Shown: positions 26,274-36,049 of the stretch, in pieces
How positions within the stretch are numbered: position 1 is the stretch's first letter
Layout of the letters: each line of letters starts with the position of its first letter
Assembly (NCBI RefSeq): GCF_002270055.1
Contig: NZ_NIBG01000002.1
Coordinates: forward strand, 186,001-250,000
Source: Anaeromicrobium sediminis
Lineage (GTDB): Bacteria; Bacillota; Clostridia; Peptostreptococcales; Thermotaleaceae
Direction: 5' to 3'
Length of the DNA stretch: 64,000 bases
Notes under the pieces: model-generated
What the model was told of the DNA's origin: nothing
The model's input: only the letters and a program-made list of their open reading frames with translations
Databases searched by the model: none
Position numbers and translations under genes: made by a program

Positions 26274-26846
26274 ATGCATAAATTTCAACCAAAGAATAAG
26301 AGTAAACTTGATAATGAGTGGAGAAGAGAAAACCTACCTCCACAAGGGACCCTTGAAAAATTAGGGTTAGTAGCAGATGATACGGTGGCAGATGTGGGGT
26401 GCGGTATAGGATATTTTACTGTTCCTGCTGCACAAATTGTAAATGAAGAGAATAGTGTTTATGCTCTAGATATTTCAGAAGAAATGCTGGCTGAAGTTAT
26501 TAAAAGAGGAGAAGATGCTAAAATTACAAATATTCATACCATACAGACTAGTGAATATGATCTAAAAATTCCTGATGAATCTGTTAGTTTTGCACTTCTT
26601 GCAAATATAGTTCATGAGGTGGAGGATAAAGAAAAATTTTTAAGGGAAGTATCTCGAATATTAAAACCTAAAGGAAAAGTTGCAGTAATAGAATGGGAGA
26701 AGAAAGAAACAAAAATAGGACCTCCAATTGATCATAGAATTAGTAAAGAAGAAGTAGGTCAGTTGTGTAATGATTTAGGATTACATATGAAGGAAGAACT
26801 TGAGTTTGCACAATGTTTCTATGGTCTTGTAGTAGTAAAGAAATAG
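26274..26846 (+). CDS. Class I SAM-dependent methyltransferase
   Basis: A 190-residue enzyme. Motif I is VADVGCGIGYFTVPAA (about residues 38-53), the acidic residue after strand 2 is in VYALDISEEM, and the motif near strand 4 is FALLANIVHEV. It looks like the Methyltransf_11/UbiE-like group. The substrate is unknown. The ATG follows GGGAGGAATCACA. Single gene with its own terminator. Confidence 0.88.
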   Translation: MHKFQPKNKSKLDNEWRRENLPPQGTLEKLGLVADDTVADVGCGIGYFTVPAAQIVNEENSVYALDISEEMLAEVIKRGEDAKITNIHTIQTSEYDLKIPDESVSFALLANIVHEVEDKEKFLREVSRILKPKGKVAVIEWEKKETKIGPPIDHRISKEEVGQLCNDLGLHMKEELEFAQCFYGLVVVKK

Positions 26847-26864
26847 AATATGTCTATGAATGAT

Positions 26865-26902
26865 GGGAGATGATTGAATTAATCAATTATCTCCCTATTT
26901 TT
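26865..26902 (+). terminator. Terminator after the methyltransferase gene
   Basis: GGGAGATGATTGA (26865-26877) pairs with TCAATTATCTCCC (26883-26895), one wobble, followed by TATTTTTA. Confidence 0.85.
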
Positions 26903-27068
26903 ACTTACAAGGAAATTATAAATTTTAAAAACTGTGGATAAGTAAAAAAATAAGGGGTTGTAGGGGAAGAATTCACCTACCTCTTTAAAGGAGGGTGCTC
27001 AGCAACTTTAGTTGCGTCGAAGGGAACCATAGGGTTCCATAGCGAAGCATACGGGGTATGCCTTTTTT
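26898..27068 (+). ncRNA. Repeated structured RNA-like element, copy A
   Basis: A 171-nt segment homologous to 35219-35386. In order: TTTTACTTA pairing with TAAGTAAAA about 45 nt later, the box GGAAATTATAAATTT, a G-rich/C-rich hairpin, the box CTCTTTAAAGGAGGGTG, the hairpin GCAAC/GTTGC, the conserved hairpin GGAACC-ATA-GGGTTCC, and a final GCATAC/GTATGC hairpin before CCTTTTTT. The hairpins are kept while their bases differ between copies, which points to selection on RNA structure. The final hairpin plus T-run would terminate transcription. No known RNA family was recognised. Confidence 0.65.
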
Positions 27069-34962: not shown

Positions 34963-35184
34963 ATGGCTGGAATAAAATACGAAATAATTAAAACAGAAGG
35001 AGTAATATCAGAATCTTCTAGGGGATGGACTAAGGAACTAAATTTAATAAGTTGGAATGATAGACCACCTAAATATGATTTGAGAGATTGGGCAGCAGGG
35101 CATGAAAAAATGGGGAAGGGTATTACCCTATCTAAAGAAGATTTAAAAAACTTAAGGGATATATTAAATGAAATGGATTTATAA
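34963..35184 (+). CDS. PC4/YdbC-family ssDNA-binding protein
   Basis: 73 residues. The sequence KGWTKELNLISWNDRPPKYDLRDW is replaced here by RGWTKELNLISWNDRPPKYD, then LRDWAAGHEKMGKGITLSKED, which is diagnostic of YdbC, the bacterial PC4-like coactivator fold that binds single-stranded DNA as a dimer. ATG 34963 follows GAGGTGA; an upstream ATG at 34954 overlaps that site. It ends in a strong terminator. Confidence 0.88.
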   Translation: MAGIKYEIIKTEGVISESSRGWTKELNLISWNDRPPKYDLRDWAAGHEKMGKGITLSKEDLKNLRDILNEMDL

Positions 35185-35189
35185 ATTTA

Positions 35190-35223
35190 AAAAGTTCTTT
35201 AACTTATGTTAAGGAACTTTTTT
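35190..35223 (+). terminator. Terminator after the YdbC gene
   Basis: AAAAGTTCTTTAAC pairs with GTTAAGGAACTTTT (one wobble), loop TTAT, then TTT. It abuts the repeated element copy B. Confidence 0.85.
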
Positions 35224-35386
35224 ACTTACTAGGAAATTATAAATTTCTAAAACTGTGGGTAAGTAAAAAAGGAAGGGGGTGTGGGGGAACATCCCCTGCC
35301 TCTTTAAAGGAGGGTGTTCAGATTGCGAGAGCAGACGCCTGCGGGAACCATAGGGTTCCATAACGAATCATGCGAAGTATGACTTT
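35219..35386 (+). ncRNA. Repeated structured RNA-like element, copy B
   Basis: The second copy of the element at 26898-27068, same orientation, also placed directly behind a terminator. Conserved blocks are TTTACTTAC, AGGAAATTATAAATTT, AAAACTGTGG with TAAGTAAAAAA, CTCTTTAAAGGAGGGTG, and GGGAACCATAGGGTTCCATA. The last hairpin is TCATGC/GTATGA here versus GCATAC/GTATGC in copy A, and the G/C-rich hairpin is GGGG/CCCC here versus TAGG/CCTA. This is consistent with compensatory change. A short T-run follows. Confidence 0.65.
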
Positions 35387-35458
35387 TTGTTTATAGACTC
35401 TTTTATAGACGTTTTTATGTTAAAATTTCCATGACGATATAATATAAGGAGTGGCGAT

Positions 35459-36049
35459 ATGAATTATAATATAGAATTAATTAAAGGCTCAGATTTAATA
35501 ACAAGGCAGTGGTCTGGTGGAACTACAACTGAAATTGCCATTAGGCCAAAGGATTCCATATACAAAGACAAAAATTTTAAGTGGAGAATTAGTTCGGCTA
35601 AGGTGGAGGTGGACGAGTCCACATTTACTTCACTACCTAATGTGGATAGAATATTAATGGTTCTTAAGGGAGAACTTAAACTTGAACATGAAGGACATCA
35701 TAGTTGTGAATTAAGGGAATTTGACCAGGATTCCTTTAGTGGAGATTGGACTACTAAAAGTTTTGGGAAGGTTACAGATTTTAATTTAATGACCATAGGC
35801 TGTAGTGGGAGAGTAGAGCCTATAAAGCTTGATGAAAATAATGTGGTAAGTTTTTCTGAAGAAGAAAACCAAGATGTGGCCCTTTATTGTGTTAATGGAG
35901 AAACACATGTGGAAATAGATGAAGAGGAATCTATAATTTTAAAAGAGGGAGATACTTGTTTAATAAGTTCTATTAAAGAAAAAGTAGCTATTAGCATATT
36001 AAATAAAGAATCAAAGGCAAATGTAGTAAAAGTTAATGTAATGTATTAA
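35459..36049 (+). CDS. HutD/Ves family protein
   Basis: A 196-residue bicupin. The family signature is TRQWSGGTTTEIAIRP, with RISSAKVEVDESTFTSLPNVDR following. HutD proteins are linked to histidine utilisation, possibly as a brake on histidine or formiminoglutamate; no hut enzyme genes are near. The ATG follows AAGGAGTGGCGAT. It lies just after the copy B element and could be expressed by read-through from it. Confidence 0.9.
   Translation: MNYNIELIKGSDLITRQWSGGTTTEIAIRPKDSIYKDKNFKWRISSAKVEVDESTFTSLPNVDRILMVLKGELKLEHEGHHSCELREFDQDSFSGDWTTKSFGKVTDFNLMTIGCSGRVEPIKLDENNVVSFSEEENQDVALYCVNGETHVEIDEEESIILKEGDTCLISSIKEKVAISILNKESKANVVKVNVMY

Follow-up and report, generated by a model that had tools for sequence, protein, structure and literature searches.

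Two copies of a structured element in the A. sediminis window

The window is a 64,000-nt stretch of the Anaeromicrobium sediminis genome (G000), in which a position equals the coordinate on contig C2 minus 186000. It contains two copies (A and B) of an intergenic unit of about 170 nt, each preceded by a host ORF and a stem-loop and each closed by a hairpin with a T-run (Table 1). No frame in the ORF list (at least 80 aa) overlaps copy A or copy B. A promoter scan of the + strand found nothing promoter-like within copy A or copy B; one such site begins at 27066, in the T-run that closes copy A, and extends downstream from there.

An earlier note on this DNA had described two same-strand copies, both behind terminators and both ending in a hairpin with a T-run. 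A profile search started from copy A recovers both copies on the + strand, and the description holds apart from the extent of copy B, which starts at 35219 as proposed and ends at 35388 rather than 35386. The 13-bp stem before copy A is found by the terminator scan, whereas the 10-bp stem before copy B comes from our own stem search. The scan of 35050–35550 lists no terminator, so neither this host stem nor the end hairpin of copy B, which is weak, is flagged there.

Table 1. Features of copies A and B and of the DNA directly upstream of them
Feature	Position	Strand	Basis
Methyltransferase-like host gene upstream of copy A (context)	26274..26846	+	ORF list; Pfam Methyltransf_11, E 3.3e-19
Host intrinsic terminator stem-loop before copy A, 13 pairs	26865..26895	+	Own stem search and terminator scan
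Copy A, whole element, T-run to T-run	26898..27068	+	nhmmer, 168.7 bits
Copy A left-end hairpin; perfect 10-nt outer arms 26898-26907 / 26939-26948	26898..26950	+	Inverted-repeat search
Copy A RF02937 (Clostridiales-2) core	26946..27027	+	73.5 bits, cut-off 58.6
Copy A core hairpin P1, GTAGGGG...CCTAC	26960..26980	+	Model and consensus fold
Copy A conserved box GGAGGGTGCTCAG	26990..27002	+	Copy alignments
Copy A hairpin 3, CAAC TTTA GTTG; sequence differs in other copies, pairing kept	27003..27014	+	Alignment, fold
Copy A hairpin 4, GGAACC / GGTTCC	27023..27038	+	Consensus fold, shuffle test
Copy A terminal hairpin 27047-27061 and T-run 27063-27068, intrinsic-terminator-like	27047..27068	+	Terminator scan
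73-aa PC4-like host ORF upstream of copy B (context)	34963..35184	+	Pfam PF02229, E 3.6e-12
Host stem-loop before copy B, 10 pairs; T-run 35218-35223	35194..35217	+	Own stem search only, not terminator scan
Copy B, whole element	35219..35388	+	nhmmer, 170.1 bits
Copy B RF02937-like core, under Rfam cut-off (contig position G000:C2:221267-221348)	35267..35348	+	42.5 bits, E 1.7e-8
Copy B hairpin 4, GGAACC / GGTTCC	35344..35359	+	Sequence, alignment
Copy B terminal hairpin 35368-35382 and T-run 35384-35388, weak	35368..35388	+	Sequence, fold

Architecture and folding of the element

Read 5′ to 3′, the unit is composed of the host-terminator T-run, a left hairpin, the G-rich hairpin P1, the box GGAGGGTGCTCAG, hairpin 3, the box CGTCGAAGG, hairpin 4 (the GGGAACC hairpin), a terminal hairpin and a second T-run. 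In copy A the 5′ side of the left hairpin takes in the host T-run, and the outer arms of this hairpin read TTTTTACTTA and TAAGTAAAAA. The subtype represented by copy B carries CGCCTGCGG in place of CGTCGAAGG. Both cores fold better than dinucleotide shuffles, with z-scores of -2.98 for copy A and -2.94 for copy B.

Conservation of the fold was assessed in an alignment (A1) of 31 copies chosen from 33 candidates, L117 and one L098 copy being omitted. Its consensus fold has 17 pairs, nine of them with compensatory changes. Measured on a structure derived from the same 31-copy alignment, 97.1% of paired cells can pair against 87.5% in shuffles, changes occur on both sides of 9/17 pairs against a shuffled mean of 4.9, and the covariation score lies far above the shuffles. 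The number of further standard pair types is not above the shuffles (16 against 14.8; 139 of 500). The chosen copies come from several genera and confirm that the boxes are shared and that pairing is kept despite sequence change, as had been proposed from copies A and B. The seven pairs of the left hairpin above its T:A foot are likewise paired more often within a copy (0.627) than when arms are exchanged among copies (mean 0.557 over 500 trials, with sd 0.012 and a highest value of 0.593).

The wobble pairs carry information on the strand. An alignment of own A. sediminis copies, comprising 88 of 99 nhmmer matches, shows 57 T·G and 38 G·T cells and no C·A or A·C at two P1 pairs (65 of the 88 copies being caught by the pattern); over the whole A1 structure the counts are 9 against 3. 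This bias points to the + strand as the folding strand. It fits RNA better than DNA, and single-stranded DNA is still compatible with it.

Single-sequence folds suggested that the purine box pairs over a long distance with the terminal T-run; this pairing is missing from the consensus fold and from the f31-type fold and was dropped. An inverted-repeat search in three copies returned hairpins or flank palindromes only, none of which joins the two ends of the element. For L186, a divergent copy, the fold is no improvement on that of shuffled sequences (z -1.25).

Most examined copies keep both ends. A few are without the 5′ part (L153, L159 and L165), and L153, of which only the right end is present, is a fragment beside ordinary genes. 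Eight Geosporobacter copies (L154, L155, L158, L160, L161, L163, L165 and L166) are without hairpin 4 and the terminal hairpin and still end in a short C/T-rich stretch followed by a T-run; they may be either a shortened subfamily that remained mobile or the product of repeated deletions. Length also varies in the other direction: in L139 (G122) the hairpin 3 loop is longer by about 40 bases, and stretched matches of about 126 instead of 82 nt occur at several other places in G122 and at G169:C11:158640-158765.

Relation to RF02937 and distribution

The core corresponds to the Rfam family RF02937 (Clostridiales-2 RNA); copy A scores above the family cut-off and copy B below it. The family model covers the central 82 nt, or approximately half of the unit, and consists of two hairpins, without the left hairpin, hairpin 4 or the terminator end. 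The name and type line of the family are silent on mobility and terminator insertion, and the entry, in the part available to us, gives no function. A 2017 survey is a likely source of the family. A search of the accessible papers by Rfam name and accession found none that names it; a description elsewhere is possible.

Covariance search with RF02937 yielded 97 matches in the A. sediminis genome at E <= 0.001 (150 of 247 candidates scored), of which 71, counted from the rows, exceed the Rfam cut-off and 26, copy B included, fall under it. An iterated profile run over the surroundings of all 97 gave 99 matches, 88 of them near full length. The earlier note had anticipated such a search and had named a match to a known RNA or MITE family, or the lack of both further copies and a transcript, as findings that would count against it. 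There are some 97 copies and not two, and the copy A core is formally a known RNA. Its description of the class as unrecognised is thus superseded for the core and stands to the extent that half of the unit is uncovered and that the family lacks an assigned function and a paper found to name it.

Among 40 relatives, 12 genomes contain matches, with up to 77 in a single genome other than A. sediminis and 32 in Geosporobacter ferrireducens (G012). Across the class, 29/391 genomes match, G000 included, and 20 do so over the cut-off; at most 11 candidates were scored per genome, so counts in this survey are lower bounds. The element occurs in several families of Clostridia. In a sample of the phylum 22/398 genomes match, and only G000 passes the cut-off. 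The weaker matches in G649, G625, G695 and G529 are multi-copy, show the same order of parts and often lie behind host stems with T-runs, all judged by eye. One G695 locus (L200) may be an array: two tandem copies stand there together with the beginning of the terminal portion of a third. No plasmid or phage sequence was matched in blastn searches with copy A and with one Geosporobacter copy, and an exact pattern had no match in viral contigs.

Insertion at intrinsic terminators

A stem scoring at least 10 lies directly before the left T-run in 68/92 own copies. The same rule is satisfied at 5.1% of 2647 T-runs in the same loci away from the copies, and in 2.2% of 460 shuffles. Several of the 24/92 copies without a stem at this threshold have stems that end a few bases too early. 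In other genomes a stem precedes the T-run in 39/57 copies (54 had a T-run), against 1.9% of shuffles. One copy, L123 (G175:C34), lies directly behind an apparent tRNA gene 3′ end and a T-run.

The orientation of the copies follows that of the neighbouring genes. With simple ORF calls for 97 of the 99 matches, five of which overlap a mechanical ORF, the upstream ORF is on the same strand in 79/97 own copies, at a median distance of 43.5 nt, and the downstream ORF in 75 of 97. On the element strand the flanking DNA has a positive GC skew in 86/97, as expected if the element follows gene direction. The genes beside the copies are unrelated to each other, and the host stems differ at nearly every site. 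Insertion is directional and takes place at the T-run of intrinsic terminators behind genes.

T-runs are present at both ends of the element. In own copies (n=87) the dinucleotides that follow the T-runs at the two ends are identical in 27/87, against 18.4 by permutation (p 0.0005); no significant match is seen for the bases before the T-runs or for T-run length. Copies from other genomes match slightly, at three bases before the T-runs in 6/47 (2.5 expected, p 0.014) and at three after them in 16/47 (11.7 expected, p 0.04). All these p values are single-test values that ignore kinship. In L126, a copy of the f31 type, an 11-nt direct repeat, GCGGTTTTTTT, occurs at both ends. Insertion may duplicate a short stretch made up of the T-run and one or two bases. 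A long target duplication was considered and rejected: most copies have no long repeat, and the three own copies in which a longer left-end repeat follows the right end (prefix scores 17, 16 and 11), with second left-end fragments at G000:C5:66052, C8:120843 and C4:32336, are read as carrying left-end remnants. These three copies account for the mean prefix score of 2.32 against 1.88 for cross pairs (0 of 200 shuffles as high).

Empty sites and mobility

Comparison of G. ferrireducens with its congener G007 identifies three syntenic sites that are occupied in the former and empty in the latter. Locus L115 contains two elements absent from G007, with flanks about 81% identical on both sides. 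At the clearest site the host hairpin AACAGGC-GAATA-GCCTG and its T-run (GCCTGTTTTTT) are kept in both genomes, and only the element is missing in G007. The second L115 site is less tidy, its flank differing further downstream. At the third, L108, G007 has the gene and terminator without the element, and the downstream flank has diverged. A query with a fourth site (L103) gave no syntenic match, only matches to elements.

Copies at different sites in G. ferrireducens are up to 98% identical, which suggests recent activity in that genome. We do not claim the same for A. sediminis, where nearest-neighbour identity is 83.0–96.5% with a median of 90.7%, values that make its copies appear rather old. 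Empty sites, copy number and patchy occurrence together demonstrate that the element is mobile. Of the two natures offered in the earlier note, functional RNA and RNA-bearing mobile element, it is the second that is upheld.

Candidate enzymes

Neither of two domains sought in the 40 relatives tracks the element significantly. RVT_1 is present in 8/12 element-bearing and 14/28 element-free genomes (p 0.49); G. ferrireducens, despite its 32 matches, has none at E <= 0.001, and A. sediminis has one weak match in an 860-aa frame. The Y1 domain is found in 12/12 element-bearing and 21/28 element-free genomes (Fisher p 0.08). Among the Y1 matches listed for G. ferrireducens, none lies near a copy when coordinates are compared by eye.

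The A. sediminis genome has two RAYT-like Y1 transposase genes (L009, G000:C28:22186; L010, C4:15811), whose own palindromic surroundings are, by eye, unrelated to the element; inspection of the two 3.3-kb loci revealed no element copy and other palindromes instead. A single TnpB-like gene, a 473-aa frame at L011 (G000:C2:30941), is the only PF07282 match of the genome. ORF families recurring beside copies (frames of at least 70 aa in at least three groups, with the TnpA/TnpB loci L009–L011 left out) include no recognisable transposase, as judged by eye from the first 150 residues.

Proposed mechanism and alternatives

We assign a probability of about 0.7 to the reading that the ~170-nt unit is a non-autonomous mobile element without a protein of its own, mobilised in trans, most likely by a single-strand DNA transposase. 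The element lands behind a working terminator and closes with a second one. Such an insertion would hardly disturb either neighbouring gene, which would explain why many copies are tolerated. Because no promoter-like site lies on the + strand inside copy A or B, read-through from the host terminator is the only transcription expected, and it would produce a structured RNA ending at the element's own terminator. The weakest step is mobilisation, in which a putative HUH/Y1-like transposase would recognise the end hairpins and target the T-run on exposed single-stranded DNA. That HUH/Y1-type transposition moves the element is a guess, since Y1 genes are also found in element-free genomes and none of those listed is near a G. 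ferrireducens copy.

The strand-specific wobbles in P1 would also suit a retroelement whose read-through RNA is copied by a reverse transcriptase, either as group IIC introns do it or through IIC enzymes acting in trans. The target is the same, a terminator-type DNA hairpin (PMC3898094, in the part available), and the few copies without a 5′ part are in line with such copying. The absence of RVT_1 from G. ferrireducens, which has near-identical copies, speaks against an RNA intermediate; across the relatives RVT_1 does not track the element, most copies examined keep both ends, and Rfam gives no group II intron match in the window at its cut-offs or for one element at E <= 5. We consider an RNA intermediate copied by a group II-type enzyme unlikely, and the retroelement reading as a whole is one we would not expect to hold. 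A regulatory or 3′-UTR RNA useful to the host and spread as a repeat, serving in 3′-end protection, as a back-up terminator or as a trans-acting RNA, would explain the conserved unpaired boxes GGTGCTCAG and CGTCGAAGG, the helices covarying over several genera, the sense-direction position behind genes and the filing of the core by Rfam as an sRNA gene. The unrelated host genes, the sites empty between congeners and the patchy presence among relatives speak against it, and degenerate or truncated copies resemble a parasite, not a fixed regulator. A cellular role is possible for some copies; as an account of the whole family it is quite improbable.

Movement of the unit as a REP-type palindrome by a resident REP-associated transposase receives some backing from the hairpins at both ends, the two RAYT-like genes of A. 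sediminis and the Y1 genes of all element-bearing relatives. REPs, however, are 20–40 bp long and GTAG/CGTC-tagged according to the accessible part of PMC3733652, whereas the element has 170 nt, and the base of P1, which reads GTAG in copy A, has GTGG or GCAG elsewhere in the family. Together with the lack of copies around the A. sediminis Y1 genes and the frequency of Y1 in element-free genomes, this leaves little room for the idea. Less probable still is the view that the repeat is old and static and owes its spread to homologous recombination at terminators, not to transposition. Insertion points within T-runs, and the three own copies followed by a second left-end fragment, could be taken in its favour, but the flanks outside the T-run are unrelated, insertion is precise, the host stems are almost all different and copies at unrelated sites reach 98% identity. 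A more far-reaching proposal is that the copies represent a widespread, unnamed class of protein-less terminator-homing elements, not confined to Clostridia but present with the same architecture in further classes of the phylum; their folded core, as RNA or single-stranded DNA, would direct insertion and their enzyme would be of a kind new to such elements. This we put forward tentatively, as a minority view.

Comparison with known elements

Group IIC introns insert behind the hairpins of intrinsic terminators (PMC3898094, citing Robart 2007, in the part available to us), and terminator targeting is common to them and the element. The element differs in its length of about 170 nt, the lack of an intron-encoded protein and its occurrence in a genome without RVT_1. 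The pneumococcal BOX, RUP and SPRITE repeats are, in the accessible text of PMC3049150, short, high-copy, intergenic and structured if transcribed, and SPRITE resembles a terminator near gene 3′ ends. As described there, terminal inverted repeats and duplicated targets characterise BOX and RUP, whereas no inverted repeat connects the ends of the element, which inserts behind a pre-existing terminator. The bcr1–bcr18 repeats of the Bacillus cereus group are MITE-like and interspersed, with about half of the copies found in mRNAs (PMC3446304); the likeness is one of description, and the excerpt available does not mention terminator insertion.

Hairpins near both ends and orientation-specific insertion are likewise features of miniature elements derived from IS200/IS605 and of REP/RAYT systems, the diversity of which is treated in PMC6006769 (consulted in part). 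Compared with these, the element has a larger structured core and no adjacent transposase or constant REP tag; it is not a 20–40-bp sequence, and by eye neither of the two A. sediminis Y1 genes nor any of those listed for G. ferrireducens is flanked by its repeats. It resembles MITEs in being short, present in about 97 copies and devoid of its own ORF, but lacks terminal inverted repeats in the three copies searched for them. It belongs with the interspersed mobile elements, has a structured core and is unusual in that terminators direct its choice of site; by Rfam, size and enzyme it is not a group II intron, and it is not a REP as PMC3733652 defines them.

For an orphan Rfam RNA this provides a probable identity, that of the middle section of a mobile element. 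The case carries a warning that covariation across many copies can reflect selection on mobility and not a cellular RNA function. For a parasite, landing behind one terminator and bringing another is a neat form of harmlessness. If the enzyme is found, terminator-directed insertion would be known to have evolved a second route, independent of the one taken by group IIC introns, and the system would have an obvious use as a tool for insertion at safe sites.
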